A stretch of 64,000 bases of DNA, from assembly GCF_004168365.1 (NCBI RefSeq), contig NZ_CP035704.1, positions 2,666,001 to 2,730,000 on the forward strand, read 5' to 3'. The notes beneath the pieces were generated by a model, which made no database searches, was not told the DNA's origin, and saw nothing but the letters and a program-made list of their open reading frames with translations. Below, in pieces: positions 51,344-58,829 of the stretch. Made by a program: the position numbers and the translations under genes. Each line of letters begins with the position of its first letter. The first letter of the stretch is position 1. Source of the DNA: Pseudolysobacter antarcticus (GTDB lineage Bacteria > Pseudomonadota > Gammaproteobacteria > Xanthomonadales > Rhodanobacteraceae).

Positions 51344-52750
51344 ATGGCGATGCGAAATTTGTCTGCTTGGGTAGTGTTGATTTCGATCACAATCGGCGCA
51401 TTCAGTATGTCGGCATTCGCTGCGACACCGACCACGATCGTCGGTGCGGAAGTCACAGCGACGCTCGCGCACGCTGACTCGGTGGCAGTCGTAGTGATGC
51501 TGGCGAGTCCGCAGCAGGATAAATTGATCGCAACCAATAGCGAAACGCGACGCACGATTGCACGCTCAGTCGATCGGGTACTGGCCGAATTGCCCGCGCA
51601 CGAATTCACGCTGCGGCGGCGCTTCGACAATATCTCTGCGATCTCGCTGGATATTTCATCGCGCGCGCTGGCGATCCTGCGACGCGATACGGCGGTATTG
51701 CGTATCGACGTGGTTGCCGGCGGCTCGGCGCAATTGCTGCAGGCCGCGCCGCTCGCGCACGTCAGCGATGTGCGTGCGCTCGGATTCACCGGCAAGAACA
51801 TCAAGACGGCGGTGATCGATTCCGGCGTGCAACTCGATCATGCCGACCTCGCCGACAGCATTGTCGGGCAGCAATGTTTTTGCAGCAGCGCCACGCCCGG
51901 CGTCGGCTGTTGCCCGAACGGATCGGCGACACAAAGTGGTGCCGGCAGCGGCGCCGATGCCGAAGGACATGGCACCAACGTCACCGGCATCATCACCGGC
52001 AACGGCAGTATCGCTCCGCAAGGCGGCGCGCCCGATGCCAACGTGGTGATCGTGCGCGTGCTCGATTCGCACGGCAGCTTTTACGATGCGTCGGACATCG
52101 CCGCCGCGCTGGACTGGATTGCGACCAACCATCCCGATACCAAGATCGTCAACATGAGTGTCGGCACGAACGCGCTGTTCAGCAGCGCCTGCGGCAATGC
52201 GCAGTCCTTCACGATGGTGATGCAGGCGGCGGTGAATGCGGTCGCAGCGAACGGCACGCTGATGACCGCGTCGTCCGGCAACCAGGCATCGGCCACCAGC
52301 ATTTCGGCGCCAGCCTGCATCAACGGCGTAATCGCAGTTGGTGCGGTGTGGGATTCCACGCTGTCGAACCAAACGTTTCTCGGCTGCACCGATACCGCAA
52401 TCGTCGCCGACAAACCGACGTGTTTCACCAACAGCAATGCACTCGTGCAGCTCTATGCGCCTGGCGCCTACACCACCGCAACCGGACTGAACACGGATCC
52501 ATTCACGAGCAACGGACAATCGAGTTACGGCGGCACCTCGCAGGCATCTCCGCTGGTCGCGTCGTGCATCGCCGATCTGTTCCAACTCAAACCGAATGCC
52601 ACCGCGGTGCAGATCAAAGCTGCACTCGCCGCTTCGCCAGCGCACATCACCGATCCGAAAAGTGGCCTTTCATTCCCGCGACTGGATTGCAAACAAGCGT
52701 TGATCTATCTCGATCGCATTTTTGCGAATGGCTTCGCGATCAGTCCCTGA
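51344..52750 (+). CDS. Secreted S8 (subtilisin-like) serine protease with DxIFxxxF C-terminus
   Basis: 468-aa protease. Signal peptide (MRNLSAWVVLISITIGAFSMSAFA), then an inhibitor/propeptide-like region (about 45-125). Catalytic triad: D159 in AVIDSGVQLDH, H209 in GHGTNVTG, and S399 in GGTSQASP. Multiple Cys (178, 180, 189, 190 and others) suggest disulfides. The protein ends LDRIFANGFAISP, which resembles the C-termini of the two glycine-rich proteins at 54835 and 56856. Likely an exported hydrolase; its substrate is unknown. Lies just after parE, with its own start region. Confidence 0.9.
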   Translation: MAMRNLSAWVVLISITIGAFSMSAFAATPTTIVGAEVTATLAHADSVAVVVMLASPQQDKLIATNSETRRTIARSVDRVLAELPAHEFTLRRRFDNISAISLDISSRALAILRRDTAVLRIDVVAGGSAQLLQAAPLAHVSDVRALGFTGKNIKTAVIDSGVQLDHADLADSIVGQQCFCSSATPGVGCCPNGSATQSGAGSGADAEGHGTNVTGIITGNGSIAPQGGAPDANVVIVRVLDSHGSFYDASDIAAALDWIATNHPDTKIVNMSVGTNALFSSACGNAQSFTMVMQAAVNAVAANGTLMTASSGNQASATSISAPACINGVIAVGAVWDSTLSNQTFLGCTDTAIVADKPTCFTNSNALVQLYAPGAYTTATGLNTDPFTSNGQSSYGGTSQASPLVASCIADLFQLKPNATAVQIKAALAASPAHITDPKSGLSFPRLDCKQALIYLDRIFANGFAISP

Positions 52751-52780
52751 GACAACTCGGCGGCAAACGGGGATAGGGCA

Positions 52781-53512
52781 TCAAACCGCATTTCGGCGGC
52801 TGGTAAAAAAGCCGTTCAAGGTCAGTCGGCCAATGCGTGGGTCGGCGCTGAGTTTTTCCGGCGCAAGAATATCGCCCGAATGCAGAATGTTGCCGTCATA
52901 GAAAATCATGCGGTTCCATTTCGGCGTGATGCGGCCAATCTGTTTGAAGTACCGATTCGATTGCTGGATATAGCCCGGTTCGATGGAATACTTCTGCGCA
53001 AAATCGGCGGCGGAAAATTTTTCGGCATCACGAAACAGTTGCGCGGTTTCCTCGACCGACCGAATCTGCTCGTAAAAACTCGTACCGCCGAGAGTCTCGT
53101 CCTTGAACAGATACAGCACCGATGCCTGCACACTTTGCTGCGCATTCAGGCCGTCGCTGTCGCGATGACAAATCCACTGGTTCGGTCGCAACGTCTGCGG
53201 CGGAGTGGTCACCATCGATAATCGACAATGCATATGCAAGCTGCGCCGCGCATCGAACAGACGCCGCACATTGCGTACGAAAAAATCCTCGAGCGCAACC
53301 AAGATTTCGCGCGGCGCCGGCAGATAAATTCCCGGATACGCATTAAAATCGACCGGCTGAAAAGCCTGACGTTGCGTGACGGCAAATTGCAGCAGACGTT
53401 CGGGATCGAGCAAGGCATCATCCACTACCAGACACGAAAGCCCGTTCCCCAGTCGCTCGGTATGGATGCGTGCCTGCGGATTGAAAATGGGTATCGCCGC
53501 GGTCGCTGCCAT
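52781..53512 (-). CDS. DUF6445-type 2OG-Fe(II)-oxygenase-like protein
   Basis: 243 aa with no signal peptide. A putative iron triad is visible: HRDSDG (H-x-D, about residue 117-120) and a distal His in NILHSGDIL (about 212), with Arg near the C-terminus (RIGRLTLNGFF), the pattern of double-stranded beta-helix dioxygenases. It resembles the DUF6445 group of Xanthomonads; no reaction is known. Convergent with the S8 protease and divergent from the chromate transporter gene. Confidence 0.7.
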   Translation of the reverse strand: MAATAAIPIFNPQARIHTERLGNGLSCLVVDDALLDPERLLQFAVTQRQAFQPVDFNAYPGIYLPAPREILVALEDFFVRNVRRLFDARRSLHMHCRLSMVTTPPQTLRPNQWICHRDSDGLNAQQSVQASVLYLFKDETLGGTSFYEQIRSVEETAQLFRDAEKFSAADFAQKYSIEPGYIQQSNRYFKQIGRITPKWNRMIFYDGNILHSGDILAPEKLSADPRIGRLTLNGFFTSRRNAV

Positions 53513-53616
53513 GATTGCTGATGCCTGCCAATAATCGCCAACGATAAAGAACTTCCGCCATCAAATCCATCTTCGTCACGTTCCTCAAACTCGGCCTGAC
53601 CTCGTTCGGTGGCCCG

Positions 53617-54735
53617 GTGGCGCATCTCGGATATTTTCGCGATGAACTAGTGATCCGACAACGCTGGATCGACGAGGCGGAATACGCGGATCTGGTCGCG
53701 CTATGCCAGTTTTTGCCTGGCCCGGCATCGAGCCAGGTCGGCTTCGCACTCGGCTTGCTGCGCGGCAACGGACTGCGTGGCGGACTGGTGGCGTGGCTCG
53801 GATTTACCTTGCCATCCGCCGTTATTCTTTTTGCATTTGCGCTTGCCGCGACCACATTCAGCGGCCCGTTGGCGCAAGGATTTCTGCACGGTTTGAAACT
53901 GGTCGCAGTCGCCGTCGTCGCGCAAGCAGTTTGGGGCATGGCGCGAACGCTGACGCCTGATTTCCAGCGTATGTTGATCGCCTTCGTCGCTGCCGTGATC
54001 ACCGCGTTGCTCGGCGGCGCACTCGCGCAGATTGCCGCGATCGCGATCGGCGCGCTGCTCGGACTAACGCTTTGTCGCAGCGATAATTCACAAGCGCGCA
54101 CGCGTTTGCATTATCCGCAATCGCGTTATGCGGGGACGATCGCCTTGCTGATTTTCGCAGTCTTGCTGGTGCTGATACCGATCGCCAGAAATGCGAGCGA
54201 CTATCCGCTGCTCACGATCTTCGATGCCTTTTATCGCAGCGGCGCGCTGGTGTTCGGCGGCGGTCATGTGGTGCTGCCGCTGTTGCAAGCCGAGGTCGTG
54301 GCACCGGGCTGGGTCACGGATCAAAGCTTTCTCGCCGGTTATGGCTTGGCGCAGGCCGTGCCCGGCCCGCTGTTCGCGTTCGCGGCGTATCTCGGTGCGA
54401 TCGCACAACCCGCACCGAACGCGCTCGGCGGCGCGCTCTGCGCAATCGTCTGCATCTTTCTGCCAGGCCTGTTGCTGGTCTACGGCATGTTGCCGTTCTG
54501 GGATGCGCTACGCATGCGCCCGCTCGCGCAAGCCGCGATGCGCGGAACCAACGCCGCGGTCGTCGGCATACTCGCGGTGGCGCTATACAGCCCAGTCTGC
54601 ACCAGCGCCATTTTCAATTGGCGCGACGGCGTTCTTGCACTCGGCGGATTTGTCTTGCTCACGTATTTCAAGTTGCCGTCGTGGATCGTTGTTGCACTGC
54701 TCGCGAGCGCGGCGATGATCATTGCACTGGTTTAG
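53617..54735 (+). CDS. chrA: Chromate transporter family protein ChrA with disrupted start
   Basis: Two-domain CHR transporter, 372 aa from the GTG at 53617. Internal HLGYFRDELVIRQRWIDEAEY and CQFLPGPASSQVGFALG are diagnostic, and a second copy (YRSGALVFGGGHVVLPLLQ) is the C-terminal domain. However the homologous N-terminus (KSIFVTFLKLGLTSFGGPVAHLG) starts about 20 codons earlier and has no ATG, GTG or TTG: in that frame an ATG at 53521 is followed by a TAA at 53545 after eight codons. Either a nonsense mutation (a CAA to TAA change would fit), an unusual start, or a sequence error. Confidence 0.8.
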   Translation: MAHLGYFRDELVIRQRWIDEAEYADLVALCQFLPGPASSQVGFALGLLRGNGLRGGLVAWLGFTLPSAVILFAFALAATTFSGPLAQGFLHGLKLVAVAVVAQAVWGMARTLTPDFQRMLIAFVAAVITALLGGALAQIAAIAIGALLGLTLCRSDNSQARTRLHYPQSRYAGTIALLIFAVLLVLIPIARNASDYPLLTIFDAFYRSGALVFGGGHVVLPLLQAEVVAPGWVTDQSFLAGYGLAQAVPGPLFAFAAYLGAIAQPAPNALGGALCAIVCIFLPGLLLVYGMLPFWDALRMRPLAQAAMRGTNAAVVGILAVALYSPVCTSAIFNWRDGVLALGGFVLLTYFKLPSWIVVALLASAAMIIALV

Positions 54736-54834
54736 CGCTACGCTAAACTAGGACGCGCTCTAACTCAGCCAGTGGAACTTGCAACCGAAAGTCATTTTTC
54801 CCAACAGCAAGCATCGACAGAACGAAGGAACGTC

Positions 54835-56763
54835 ATGACACGAGCAATCACCTACAACAGCATCAACACGCGCATCTTCTTTCCTCGCACCAACCTGGCT
54901 CGTGAGAATCTGTTGCCTCGCTGTCTGCTAGCAGCGCTGCTAGTTAGCGTGGTTGCGATCACACTAGGCGCACCGCTCACGGCGCAAGCCACGACAATCG
55001 GCTGCACCGGTACCACCGGCGATAGCCATGCGCTGATCGTGGCAATCACCAACGCCAACGATAGTGCCAGCGGCGGTGACACTATCGATCTCGGCGCTGG
55101 TTGTACTTACACGTTCACGGTGGCGGATAACTGGTGGTACGGACCGAACGCACTACCACCGATCGCATCCAATGTTGTCATCAACGGGCATGGATCAACT
55201 CTGCTCGCTTCGCATATTGATGGCCCGACGCCGATCACGGCGAATGCATTTCGGTTTTTTTATATCTCGGGTGGCCTCGAACTGCGCGCAGCGAATCTGA
55301 CCCTGAACAACCTCACTTTGTCAGGCGGATACGCCAAGGGTGGCGATAGCTTGATCGGCGGCGGCGGGAGCGGCATGGGTGGAGCGATATTCAATCAGGG
55401 TTATTTGACCCTGAACGCATTAACCATCACCGGCAATACTGCAATCGGTGGCAGCGGCGGGGCACCTGCCGAAAGTGGAGGCGGCGGAGGTGGCATGGGG
55501 CAGAATGGCCAGAGCAACAATGATGGCGGTGGCTTTGGTGCGGACTATGGCGCGTTCGGCGGCGCCGGCAACATTTACCTAACTGATTACAACGGCGGTG
55601 GCGGTGGCGGTGGCTTCATTTTCGGTGCCAATGGTATTCCTCAGATTCCAGACGATGGAAGCGGCGGCCTTGGCGGTGGTTTGGGCGGTCTGGGCAGCAT
55701 GTCCGCAGATGGCGGGAACGGCGGCCGCAGCTTCTTCTACAGTGGATACGGCGGCAACTTCGGCCTCGGCGGTATCGGTGTGCATTACGGACAAGGTAGC
55801 TTCGGCGGTGGCGGTGGCGGCAGCGGAGCCGGCGGTGGTAAAGCCGGTTATTTGGCGGTCGGCGGTTCTGGCGGATTTGGGGGTGGCGGCGGTGGCGGGC
55901 GCACGGGAGGCAGTGGTGGCTTTGGTGGCGGTGGCGGCGGGAATAACACTAGCGCGACTGGCGGTTCAGGCGGTGACGGTGGGTTCGGTGGAGGCGCTGG
56001 CGGCGGAGCCACCGGCTATGGAAACGGCGCAAGTGGCGCAGGCTTCGGCGGCGCGATTTTCAACCACACGGGCATACTGACTCTGATCAATGTCACCATC
56101 AATGGAAATTCGGCCCAAGGCGGCACAGGTACGACCAGCGGCTCTGGTCTCGGCGGCGCAATCTTCAATCTCAACGGCACAGTGAATTTGAACTTCTGCA
56201 CCATTGCTGGCAACAGCGTTTCGGGCACCAACGGCACCGATACGAGCAAAGGAGCAGGCGACGGCGCGATTTATTCGCTCGCGTTCGGCAACAAGATTCA
56301 GGACGGCACAGCCAGCATCGCCAGCATGACGATTCGCAATAGCATCATTTACGCCAACGCTGGCGCGAGTAACGGCCTTGTCAACAATGTCGTCACAGGC
56401 ACGCTGGCGAGCAATACCGGCAACATCGCCCAACTGATTTACGGCGGCGGCAATATTGTCGATAGCACTGCCAACTTTGGCACTGCAACTAATAGCGGCC
56501 CTGCTCCGCTGGTCGCGAATCCGAATGTCGGGCCACTGCAGAACAACGGTGGCAATACATTGACGATGGCGTTGGCCGCTGGCAGTCCGGCGATCGATGC
56601 CGGCATGGCATGCGCCGGCAATACTCCTGCTACCGATCAAATCGGCAACGCACGCGTCTGGGCGCGCGCGCCTGATCTCGGCGCCTACGAATATGCGTCG
56701 CAAGCGGGCAGTAATGACGATATTTTCGGCGGCAACTTCGACGCTGCGAATCAGTGCCCCTGA
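54835..56763 (+). CDS. Secreted beta-helix protein with glycine-rich insert, paralogue 1
   Basis: 642 aa. The long N-terminal leader (about 50 residues, basic region then LLPRCLLAALLVSVVAITLG) resembles extended signal peptides of autotransporters. Residues about 55-165 and 405-630 are beta-helix, with PMP-like rungs GGAIFN at 55380, 56047 and 56152, then TLTMALAAGSPAIDAG and PDLGAYEY of the choice-of-anchor Q type. Between the rungs lies a glycine-rich block (about 171-405). The end is SNDDIFGGNFDAANQCP. ATG 54835 has AAGGAA upstream. No enzymatic motif; function unknown. Confidence 0.85.
   Translation: MTRAITYNSINTRIFFPRTNLARENLLPRCLLAALLVSVVAITLGAPLTAQATTIGCTGTTGDSHALIVAITNANDSASGGDTIDLGAGCTYTFTVADNWWYGPNALPPIASNVVINGHGSTLLASHIDGPTPITANAFRFFYISGGLELRAANLTLNNLTLSGGYAKGGDSLIGGGGSGMGGAIFNQGYLTLNALTITGNTAIGGSGGAPAESGGGGGGMGQNGQSNNDGGGFGADYGAFGGAGNIYLTDYNGGGGGGGFIFGANGIPQIPDDGSGGLGGGLGGLGSMSADGGNGGRSFFYSGYGGNFGLGGIGVHYGQGSFGGGGGGSGAGGGKAGYLAVGGSGGFGGGGGGGRTGGSGGFGGGGGGNNTSATGGSGGDGGFGGGAGGGATGYGNGASGAGFGGAIFNHTGILTLINVTINGNSAQGGTGTTSGSGLGGAIFNLNGTVNLNFCTIAGNSVSGTNGTDTSKGAGDGAIYSLAFGNKIQDGTASIASMTIRNSIIYANAGASNGLVNNVVTGTLASNTGNIAQLIYGGGNIVDSTANFGTATNSGPAPLVANPNVGPLQNNGGNTLTMALAAGSPAIDAGMACAGNTPATDQIGNARVWARAPDLGAYEYASQAGSNDDIFGGNFDAANQCP
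55345..56046 (+). repeat. Glycine-rich coding repeat (GGx/GGFGGGG) in paralogue 1
   Basis: About 230 codons of imperfect GG-x and FGGGGGG units lie between two beta-helix rungs. The DNA is a GGC/GGT repeat array that resembles simple-sequence DNA and would be prone to slippage. Confidence 0.85.
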
Positions 56764-56772
56764 GAAAATAAT

Positions 56773-56849
56773 TTCCCCGGTGACATTTCAACCTGCCAAT
56801 TTTCGATAGCTTGGTCAGGCACCTGAAATCCGACTCCAGCACCGGGGAA
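56773..56849 (+). promoter_or_regulatory. Long intergenic RNA hairpin masking the paralogue 2 ribosome binding site
   Basis: TTCCCCGGTG (56773-56782) pairs with CACCGGGGAA (56840-56849), the latter containing the GGGGA ribosome binding site of the downstream gene. Inside it, ATTTCA (56785-56790) pairs with TGAAAT (56824-56829), and CCTGCCAA (56792-56799) with TTGG-T-CAGG (56111-56119 region, exactly 56811-56819) leaving one bulge. About 24 bp in all. No T-run follows, so it is not a standard terminator; an inverted repeat controlling translation, or a MITE-like relic, are the options. Confidence 0.65.
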
Positions 56850-56855
56850 TCCATC

Positions 56856-58829
56856 ATGCAATACCGTACCAAGATCGTTCACCACGCCCGCACTATCGCG
56901 CTGTCCCGCGACAATCCAGTCGGGATTTTTTTCGCGCGCAAAAAAATTATTCGCGCTGCCGCCTGCGCGCTGGTATTTGCCGGTTTCCTGCCGCTCGCGG
57001 CGCAGGCGACCAGCGTTGCTTGCACTGGAACCACGGGCGATAGCGCCGGCCTGATCGCGGCGATCGCCGCAGCGAATAGCGGTAGCGGCGATACCATCGA
57101 TCTTGCTGCCGGATGCACATACGCTTTCAGCGCGGCGGACAATTTCTGGTACGGCCCGAATGCGTTGCCGCCGATCACCGCTACGATCGTGATCAATGGT
57201 CACGGTGCAACTCTGCTGGCATCGCACAGCGGCGATCCCTCGCCAGTGGCGGCGAATGCGTTTCGTTTCTTTTACGTCTCCGGCGGCCTGCAACTGGCCG
57301 CGGGCAGCCTGAGCTTGAACACATTGACGCTCGCTGGCGGTTACGCGCGCGGCGGCGATTCCACCTACGGCGGTGGCGGCGGCGGCTTCGGCGGCGCGAT
57401 CTTCAATCAAGGCACCTTGAACCTGAGTGCGGTCACGCTGAGCGGCAATACTGCACGCGGCGGCGGCGGCATCGGCGACGCCAACAATCCGCAATACATC
57501 GGCAGCGCAGGCGGCGGCATGGGCGAGGATGCCGGCGCGAATGTCTTTCACGGCGGCGGATTCGGTGGTCCGCTCAGCGGCACGTATATCGCAGGACTCG
57601 GTGGCGCCGGCGGTTCCGGTGGCGGCGGTGGTGGTGGCGGTTTTATCGTTGGCGCGAATGGCGACGCCGGCGGTGCAAGCAATGTCAGCGCGCAGGGTGC
57701 CAATGGCGGCGGCAATGGTCATCTCGGTGGTGTCGGTTATCCGGGGATCACCGGTGACGGCGGCGCGGGCGGCAATATTGGGCAATACGTCGGCAACGTT
57801 GGCGGTGCGGGCGGTGGTGGCGTCGGCGGCGGCGGCGGACCTCCCGGTGGTGGCAGCGGTCAAGGCGGTGACTTCGGCGGTGGCGGCACCTCGGGTTACG
57901 GCACCGGCGGCGCAGGCGGTTTCGGTGGCGGCGGTGGCACCTCCGGCGGCGGATTCGGTACCACCGGTGGCGCTGGCGGTTTCGGTGGTGGCGGCGGCGG
58001 CGCAGGTGGTTATGGCGCAGGTAACGGTGTTGGCGGGCGCGGCGGATTCGGTGGCGGCGGCGGCAGTAGTAGCGACAGTATCGGTGGCGGTGGCGGCGGT
58101 TTTGGTGGCGCGATTTTCAATCACACCGGCAATGTCAGTCTAACCAATGTCACGCTGAGCGGTAATAGCGCGATCGGTGGACCGTCGGTGTTCTTCTACG
58201 ACAACCCCGGTCGCAATGGCTCCGGACTCGGCGGCGCGATCTTCAATCTCAACGGTGAGGTCACGCTGAATTTTTGTACCGTTGCCGGCAACAGCGTGGC
58301 CAACAGCAACAACGCGGTCGAAGGCCCCGGCGATGGCAGCGCGCTGTATTCACTGGCCTACGGCAATCGCATCGAGGACGGCACGGCAAGCAATGCCGCA
58401 ATCAATCTCGGCAACAGCATCGTCTGGGGCAATATCGGCGCAGTTCATGCGCTGCTCAACACGGTGATTGGTGGCACGAGCGGATCGAACGGCGGCAATT
58501 CCGCGTTACTTGCCTACGTGGGTTCGAACATCGTCGATAGCAGCAGCGGCAACGGCAGTAGCAGCGGCCCCGCGCCGTTGAGTGGTGACCCGAAACTCGG
58601 CGGCTTGCAGGATAACGGCGGCGGTACTCCGACGATGGCCTTGCAAAATGGCAGCGCCGCGATCGATGCCGGCAGCCACTGCGGTGCCCTGCCCGCCACC
58701 GATCAGCGCGGTAATATGCGCAACTGGGGCGCGGAACCCGACCTTGGCGCTTATGAATCCGGTGCGCCGCTGGGCAGCAACGACGAGATTTTCCACGGCG
58801 CATTCGAGGCCGGCGTGGTGTGTCCTTGA
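56856..58829 (+). CDS. Secreted beta-helix protein with glycine-rich insert, paralogue 2
   Basis: 657 aa, collinear with paralogue 1 at 54835: basic extended leader with hydrophobic IRAAACALVFAGFLPLAAQA, then CTGTTGDS, NFWYGPNALPPI, GGAIFNQGTLNL, glycine-rich block (about 171-417), GGAIFNHTGNVSL, GLGGAIFNLNGEVTL, TPTMALQNGSAAIDAG and PDLGAYES. C-terminus SNDEIFHGAFEAGVVCP. ATG 56856 with GGGGA upstream. Higher GC than paralogue 1, so the pair has diverged in codon use. Lies 92 bp behind paralogue 1 in tandem. Function unknown. Confidence 0.85.
   Translation: MQYRTKIVHHARTIALSRDNPVGIFFARKKIIRAAACALVFAGFLPLAAQATSVACTGTTGDSAGLIAAIAAANSGSGDTIDLAAGCTYAFSAADNFWYGPNALPPITATIVINGHGATLLASHSGDPSPVAANAFRFFYVSGGLQLAAGSLSLNTLTLAGGYARGGDSTYGGGGGGFGGAIFNQGTLNLSAVTLSGNTARGGGGIGDANNPQYIGSAGGGMGEDAGANVFHGGGFGGPLSGTYIAGLGGAGGSGGGGGGGGFIVGANGDAGGASNVSAQGANGGGNGHLGGVGYPGITGDGGAGGNIGQYVGNVGGAGGGGVGGGGGPPGGGSGQGGDFGGGGTSGYGTGGAGGFGGGGGTSGGGFGTTGGAGGFGGGGGGAGGYGAGNGVGGRGGFGGGGGSSSDSIGGGGGGFGGAIFNHTGNVSLTNVTLSGNSAIGGPSVFFYDNPGRNGSGLGGAIFNLNGEVTLNFCTVAGNSVANSNNAVEGPGDGSALYSLAYGNRIEDGTASNAAINLGNSIVWGNIGAVHALLNTVIGGTSGSNGGNSALLAYVGSNIVDSSSGNGSSSGPAPLSGDPKLGGLQDNGGGTPTMALQNGSAAIDAGSHCGALPATDQRGNMRNWGAEPDLGAYESGAPLGSNDEIFHGAFEAGVVCP
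57364..58107 (+). repeat. Glycine-rich coding repeat in paralogue 2
   Basis: About 247 codons of GG-x, GFGGGGG and GGAGG units encoded by GGC/GGT/GGA runs, at the same place in the fold as in paralogue 1 but with different unit order. Confidence 0.85.

Follow-up and report, generated by a model that had tools for sequence, protein, structure and literature searches.

Three exported proteins encoded within a 64,000-nt stretch of the Pseudolysobacter antarcticus genome (NZ_CP035704.1, positions 2,666,001 to 2,730,000; hereafter, the window) end in a short conserved tail, and this tail is part of a genome-wide tag, D-x-I-F-x-(D/N)-G-F-(E/D), that extends beyond these three proteins. Among the genomes of the family, the tag is near-exclusive to those that encode a second type II secretion system (T2SS), referred to here as T2SS-A. 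We propose, with a probability of roughly 0.5, that the tag acts as a linear recruitment tag for T2SS-A at the free end of the mature protein. The broader version of this proposal, in which a linear, portable T2SS signal of nine residues would work from the N- or the C-terminus of the mature chain and direct dozens of folded, mutually unrelated proteins to one of the cell's two T2SSs, is put forward tentatively, at somewhat under even odds.

The window encodes an S8 (subtilisin-like) protease (51344–52750, + strand; Pfam PF00082, E value 7.6e-34) and two beta-helix-like proteins, paralogue 1 (54835–56763, + strand; choice-of-anchor Q domain, E value 3.8e-21) and paralogue 2 (56856–58829, + strand; choice-of-anchor Q domain, E value 1.5e-22), all three being putative tagged cargo. 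The tails of these open reading frames (ORFs) are exactly as given in the preliminary description of the window (protease, ...DRIFANGFAISP; paralogue 1, ...DDIFGGNFDAANQCP; paralogue 2, ...DEIFHGAFEAGVVCP), and the signal peptides that it reported on all three are likewise apparent on reading the sequences. The tag takes the form DRIFANGF followed by AISP in the protease (52712–52747, + strand), DDIFGGNFD followed by AANQCP in paralogue 1 (56716–56760, + strand) and DEIFHGAFE followed by AGVVCP in paralogue 2 (58782–58826, + strand). No other frame among the 579 stop-to-stop frames of at least 60 codons in the window has DxIFxxxF in its last 25 residues. The choice-of-anchor Q domain (NF041518) lies directly before the tag in paralogue 1 (56518–56694, + strand; residues 583–641 of the frame from 54772) and occupies 58587–58760 in paralogue 2 (+ strand; residues 593–650 of the frame from 56811). 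These frames begin at the longest possible starts, GTG 54772 and TTG 56811; ATG 54835 and ATG 56856, respectively, are more likely. Searching paralogue 1 against Pfam returned zero matches at E values up to 1. The three proteins had been described as otherwise unrelated, which holds for protease versus beta-helix; the beta-helix pair are mutual paralogues, leaving two independent families rather than three. Similarly, the range previously given from 52700 takes in only the tail of the protease, the gene itself starting at 51344. An AlphaFold2 model of the protease, built without an alignment, had a mean predicted local distance difference test score of 35.8 and is unusable for judging disorder of the tail.

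A DNA pattern for DxIFxxxF returned 111 matches in the 4.73-Mb genome versus 0 for the reversed pattern; the motif is far more frequent than expected by chance. We read 100 distinct matches individually and found a stop 8–30 codons after the D in 74 of them, with a mode of 9. Setting aside three with a stop more than 20 codons away and seven in frames of fewer than 50 residues left 64 tails, a few of which are probably still chance frames. Their consensus is D-x-I-F-x-(N 24, D 21)-(G 40)-F-(E 37, D 12), where the search pattern itself dictates D, I, F and F, while G, N/D and E/D are free of that constraint. Between 0 and 9 varied residues follow the tag, with 21/64 tails stopping directly at its end. 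No hydrophobic helix or basic end was seen in the tails read, in agreement with the preliminary description of a tail lacking a membrane helix. Cysteine occurs in 12 of the 43 tails that run past the tag, often as CP or CH at the extreme end; both window paralogues end in CP. We found no published description of the tag in the literature searched. None of the families listed for 61 tagged proteins (25 of 55 from NCBIfam 20.0 and 25 of 85 from Pfam-A) is a model covering the tail, bearing in mind that a nine-residue model could miss the E-value limit.

When these 61 tagged proteins were aligned, the tail was the sole part common to them. NCBIfam assigned 16/61 to choice-of-anchor Q (with the domain ahead of the tail), 10/61 to delta-60 repeat proteins and three to M36-type metallopeptidases, the remaining matches being spread singly over many further families; NF038111 (rhombosortase-dependent M36) is matched by three of the tagged proteins. 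Among the 25 of 85 Pfam families listed, DUF5122 propellers were the most frequent (eight), alongside FG-GAP repeats, endonuclease I, GH44, M14 and others. Almost all of the complete tagged proteins appear to be exported; they comprise predicted beta-helices, propellers, proteases and hydrolases. Reading of the N-termini identified a signal peptide in 30 of the 33 complete tagged ORFs (exceptions L009, L045 and L068), and one tagged protein, L081, is a twin-arginine precursor. The enrichment on exported proteins anticipated in the preliminary description was recovered with two home-made signal peptide rules: a strict rule, which misses true cases, was positive for 19/33 tagged versus 15/81 untagged ORFs (Fisher p = 8e-5), and a loose rule, which is noisy given that 54/111 controls were positive, for 27/33 tagged versus those 54/111 untagged ORFs (p = 7e-4). 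Beside the new tag, the genome encodes an exported protein (L344) with an IPTL-like tail of a membrane helix plus arginines; we take this tail, and those of L182 (genome G403) and L368 (genome G522), to be IPTL-CTERM-like.

The tag is not purely a C-terminal signal, since it can also sit right behind a signal peptide. Among the 26/100 matches without a nearby stop are six exported proteins of the P. antarcticus genome with the tag in this position (L020, L025, L041, L063, L075 and L076), and three further N-terminal tags were identified in other genomes (L099 and L102, both in G397, and L138), giving nine in total from at least two genera. L099 is a DUF1800 protein, L138 is esterase-like and L306, a longer stretch of L075, is a subtilase. 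No second tag was present at the C-terminus of the four N-terminally tagged proteins for which this end could be read, the other five running off the stretch. The preliminary description had drawn an analogy with PEP-CTERM and GlyGly-CTERM processing; a C-terminal cleave-and-anchor scheme fits these nine proteins poorly, and we do not retain it. With a stricter motif, the tags in the P. antarcticus genome comprised 31 C-terminal, four N-terminal and two internal cases, and those in other genomes 50 C-terminal, four N-terminal (L330 being later dropped), six internal and one unassigned; two of those six internal matches belong to genomes from beyond the family. Within P. antarcticus, internal tags are located at domain borders (L038 and L051) or in an RHS-like protein (L031). 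An RHS-like protein with an interior tag is encoded at L307 (G000:C2:723500-726500). L330, an S8 protease with a lone internal DTLFASGFD, was dropped from the tagged set because the corresponding stretch is similar in homologues that lack the tag.

Across genomes, the tag shows an all-or-nothing distribution. Of 398 genomes of the phylum searched with a strict pattern, matches were returned by three of the four from the same family (10–32 each), none of the six others from the order and two of the remaining 388 (one each). Within the family, 45 of 233 genomes have 10–130 copies and 188 have 0–1 (11 of these with 1), while the reversed control returned 0 everywhere. The suspicion that such endings recur on exported proteins of this family is therefore well founded, given these 45 genomes and the 111 matches in P. 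antarcticus. The tag occurs on many unrelated exported proteins per genome and has a bimodal distribution over genomes, as sorting tags in the wide sense do; the earlier suggestion of a sorting or secretion signal is matched by the genome-wide and 233-genome counts. A wider motif, [ILVM]F..GF[ED], found only control-level matches in ten tag-free genomes (3–6 versus 0–7 reversed), and 53 versus 2 reversed in the tagged control G520. A survey of S8 proteases, with 107 matches in 12 genomes of which 51 were inspected (11 running off the stretch), revealed the tag on 8/21 readable C-termini in tagged genomes versus 0/19 in untagged ones (p 0.004), counting the varied forms EKIFNDGFG, DKLFRDQFE and DRIFADGLE. 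The last of these is the tail of the one readable relative of the window protease (G437, 62% identical), in which the ending is accordingly kept. Choice-of-anchor Q proteins of tag-free relatives had no tag on any of nine readable tails (14 loci, five running off the stretch). In place of the tag, the choice-of-anchor Q protein L182 of G403 has a membrane-helix tail. These distributions bear on the possibility of a role outside targeting, with the tail serving as a structural cap or as a motif for quality control or degradation. Being short and located at chain ends, the tail could pass for one of these; yet it occurs on many unrelated folds, at either end, and is confined to a single clade although its cargo families exist untagged elsewhere, which argues that such a role is very improbable.

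The tag is associated with T2SS-A. Divergent GspG was detected in 48/48 genomes of a balanced set, while canonical GspG (E value about 1e-50 or better) was detected in 22/24 tagged and 2/24 untagged genomes (G418 and G419), and the secretin followed the same pattern over 107 genomes. Over the whole family, the T2SS-A secretin (at least 64% identical to that of P. antarcticus) is present in 42/45 tagged versus 1/188 untagged genomes, the latter being G522 (Fisher 2e-41, uncorrected for relatedness). Of the tagged genomes without the secretin, G511 and G626 have canonical GspG, and G410 (85% complete, 770 contigs) has neither; T2SS-A is thus seen, as secretin or canonical GspG, in 44/45 tagged genomes, many of them drafts. 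The search for canonical GspG covered 77 of the 233 family genomes. T2SS-A genes were the only ones found to co-occur with the tag among the few families compared across genomes, which were chosen without an unbiased screen. From this association, we infer that T2SS-A exports the tagged proteins and that the tag is what it reads.

In P. antarcticus, T2SS-A is encoded by gspC-D-E-F (G000:C2:349899-357316), adjoining rho, trx, a DEAD-box gene and ftsEX, and by gspG-N (L160), adjoining bioA. Pfam confirms components C, D, E, F, G, J, K, L, M and N, with GspN assigned to PF01203 and a PDZ domain in GspC (E value 5e-11). Tagged genomes also have an Xps-like T2SS; L161, in the GspC place of the Xps-like set of P. 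antarcticus, returned zero Pfam matches. A search for relatives of the T2SS-A secretin identified 19 loci with 64–72% identity, the named ones belonging to Dokdonella fugitiva, D. immobilis, other Dokdonella, Tahibacter soli and a Rudaea metagenome-assembled genome (MAG), and the others to Lysobacterales or proteobacterial MAGs. Tagged C-termini were present in 7/19 of the secretin-locus stretches, including those of D. fugitiva and D. immobilis; none was seen within the 22-kb secretin stretch of T. soli. In several Dokdonella-like genomes (L253, L257, L259, L266 and L270), the neighbourhood of gspC-F includes the gene for a conserved protein with the tag (...RxAANTPSCL...DLIFANGF). Several candidates for T2SS-A without the tag were rejected: the secretins of g234, G571, G578, G585 and G593 are 41–53% identical to that of P. 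antarcticus, versus at least 63% in tagged genomes, and are treated here as other systems, and the G418 secretin is only 25% identical.

In a ParE tree of 50 genomes, G403, G426 and G454, which have neither the tag nor T2SS-A, fall inside the tagged clade with a support of 100, although their exact place is weak (25–28). The secretin and canonical GspG are both absent from all five tag-free genomes of group g219, namely these three together with G617 and G618, which were left off the tree. Tag and T2SS-A might be unrelated features that were both present in the clade ancestor and that a nested group lost by chance. A single clade carries both, their well-supported joint absence amounts to one event, and two genomes (G522 and G616) are decoupled, all of which such a coincidence of descent would accommodate. 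However, T2SS-A accompanies the tag in 44/45 genomes despite many being drafts, and the single-gene tree places genomes lacking both inside the tagged clade, which together make coincidence improbable.

We favour recruitment to T2SS-A because the tag can occupy either end, sits on unrelated folds, is found on Sec as well as Tat cargo and occurs only where the extra T2SS exists. Sec (or Tat, in at least one case) would bring the tagged proteins across the inner membrane, and they would fold in the periplasm. The tag lies at a free end of the mature chain, in most cases the C-terminus and in some the N-terminal end that follows the signal peptide. The exposed tag would then recruit the cargo to the lineage-specific T2SS-A for export through its secretin, separating it from other periplasmic proteins and from the cargo of the Xps-like T2SS. 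N-terminal placement in nine proteins is as expected of a recognition peptide, and the tagged twin-arginine precursor L081 is in keeping with a system whose substrates are folded in the periplasm. As with T2SS substrates generally, Sec or Tat signal peptides are present on predicted soluble exoproteins, in genomes with a T2SS. As to which part of the system might read the tag, the N-domains of GspD or GspC are guesses, and the PDZ domain of GspC is a tempting candidate.

Several observations weigh against recruitment to T2SS-A. The link between the tag and T2SS-A is one of association only, and few independent evolutionary events are involved, namely a single occurrence across the clade and a single joint absence nested within it. 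Other canonical T2SSs (g234, G571, G578, G585 and G593) occur without the tag, and many exported proteins in tagged genomes are untagged, including 13/21 S8 proteases. A classical PDZ ligand, with a fixed hydrophobic last residue and a free carboxylate, was considered and rejected since 0–9 varied residues follow the motif and N-terminal tags exist. Moreover, G522 (80% complete) has gspC-F and gspG-N but no tag, and G616 (78% complete) has bioA-gspG-N but no tag. In a tree of T2SS-A genes, these two group with tagged genomes (support 100 and 90, respectively). The wider motif was at background in G522 (five matches versus four in the control), no alternative soluble tail was found in 224 kb of this genome, and an absent T2SS as the explanation for its missing tag is ruled out by the presence of both gene clusters. 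Two exported G522 proteins end in membrane-helix tails. The tag, then, accompanies T2SS-A, but T2SS-A is not always accompanied by the tag; G522 and G616 indicate that the system can exist tag-free and that a further factor may be involved.

Such a factor could read the tag in the periplasm, as an adaptor, a chaperone or a modifying enzyme distinct from T2SS-A, which would then be only a frequent companion or the last step. G522 and G616, with T2SS-A and no tag, look as if a further factor had been lost, and only a few families were compared across genomes, none of them without bias. Nevertheless, no candidate emerged, the genes of T2SS-A being the only co-occurring ones among those few families, and we consider a reader of this kind unlikely, though an adaptor working together with T2SS-A is compatible with the recruitment mechanism set out above.

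The main rival is surface docking, whereby proteins would leave the cell by T2SS-A or another route and the tag would bind a receptor on the surface or surface layer, serving retention instead of export. Choice-of-anchor Q, delta-60 repeat and M36-type proteins bear tails with an anchoring role elsewhere, and these are the families found among the tagged cargo. Binding would accommodate a position at either end just as readily as recruitment; the choice-of-anchor Q protein of tag-free G403 and the two G522 proteins have membrane-helix tails instead of the tag, and tag-free G522 and G616 could have lost a receptor. Docking explains the tag nearly as well as recruitment does, but not the tie to T2SS-A: alone, it leaves the restriction to T2SS-A genomes unexplained when an Xps-like T2SS is also there, and no receptor was found in a search that was not unbiased. 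We therefore regard docking as a serious contender, albeit a rather unlikely one.

The tag differs in form from known C-terminal sorting systems. Like the new tag, PEP-CTERM and IPTL-CTERM tails are short, C-terminal and found on exported proteins with diverse folds; they have a membrane helix and a basic end, both absent here. The C-terminal domain signal of type IX secretion is a folded domain of about 70–100 residues which, like the tag, is conserved, found on many unrelated exported folds and devoid of a membrane helix; the tag, in contrast, spans about nine residues and is accompanied by a T2SS.

Further parallels come from T2SS-linked systems. GlyGly-CTERM/rhombosortase (PMC12369372) is reminiscent of the tag in that each genome has many exported proteins with a short tail, in its T2SS-linked cargo and in partly overlapping cargo families; its own feature is a cleaved C-terminal transmembrane helix, whereas the new tag is helix-free, often forms the very last residues and can be N-terminal. 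MYXO-CTERM/myxosortase (PMC11980579) likewise involves dozens of tagged proteins per genome and T2SS-dependent surface export, but its cleaved tail combines a Cys motif, a transmembrane helix and an Arg-rich end, none of which is in the new consensus. A short sequence behind the signal peptide that steers proteins to a T2SS is described for Acinetobacter lipoproteins in PMC12802150: this GspN-dependent sorting motif follows the lipobox, is rich in Gly/Ser or Asn/Asp and is required but not sufficient. T2SS-A has a GspN too, though the new tag, D-x-I-F-x-x-G-F-E, is different and mostly C-terminal. No lipobox was noticed on tagged proteins, although no systematic search was aimed at lipoboxes.

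Known T2SS substrates have unrelated folds and are folded in the periplasm, according to PMC7949064 and PMC12369372, and the latter reports that one Vibrio substrate depends on the EpsC PDZ domain for its export. The determinants of secretion in these accounts are structural, unlike a linear motif common to dozens of proteins, and the prevailing view, as given in PMC7949064, is that the T2SS signal is structural, since a common linear sequence is not seen. How T2SSs choose their cargo is an old open question. In these bacteria, cargo choice becomes directly testable, since dozens of exported proteins have one terminal motif, nearly always alongside one particular T2SS, and the other T2SS can serve as an internal control. 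If the tag does recruit cargo to T2SS-A, it would allow simple prediction of exported proteins in Dokdonella, Tahibacter and their relatives, and may offer an export tag for biotechnology.

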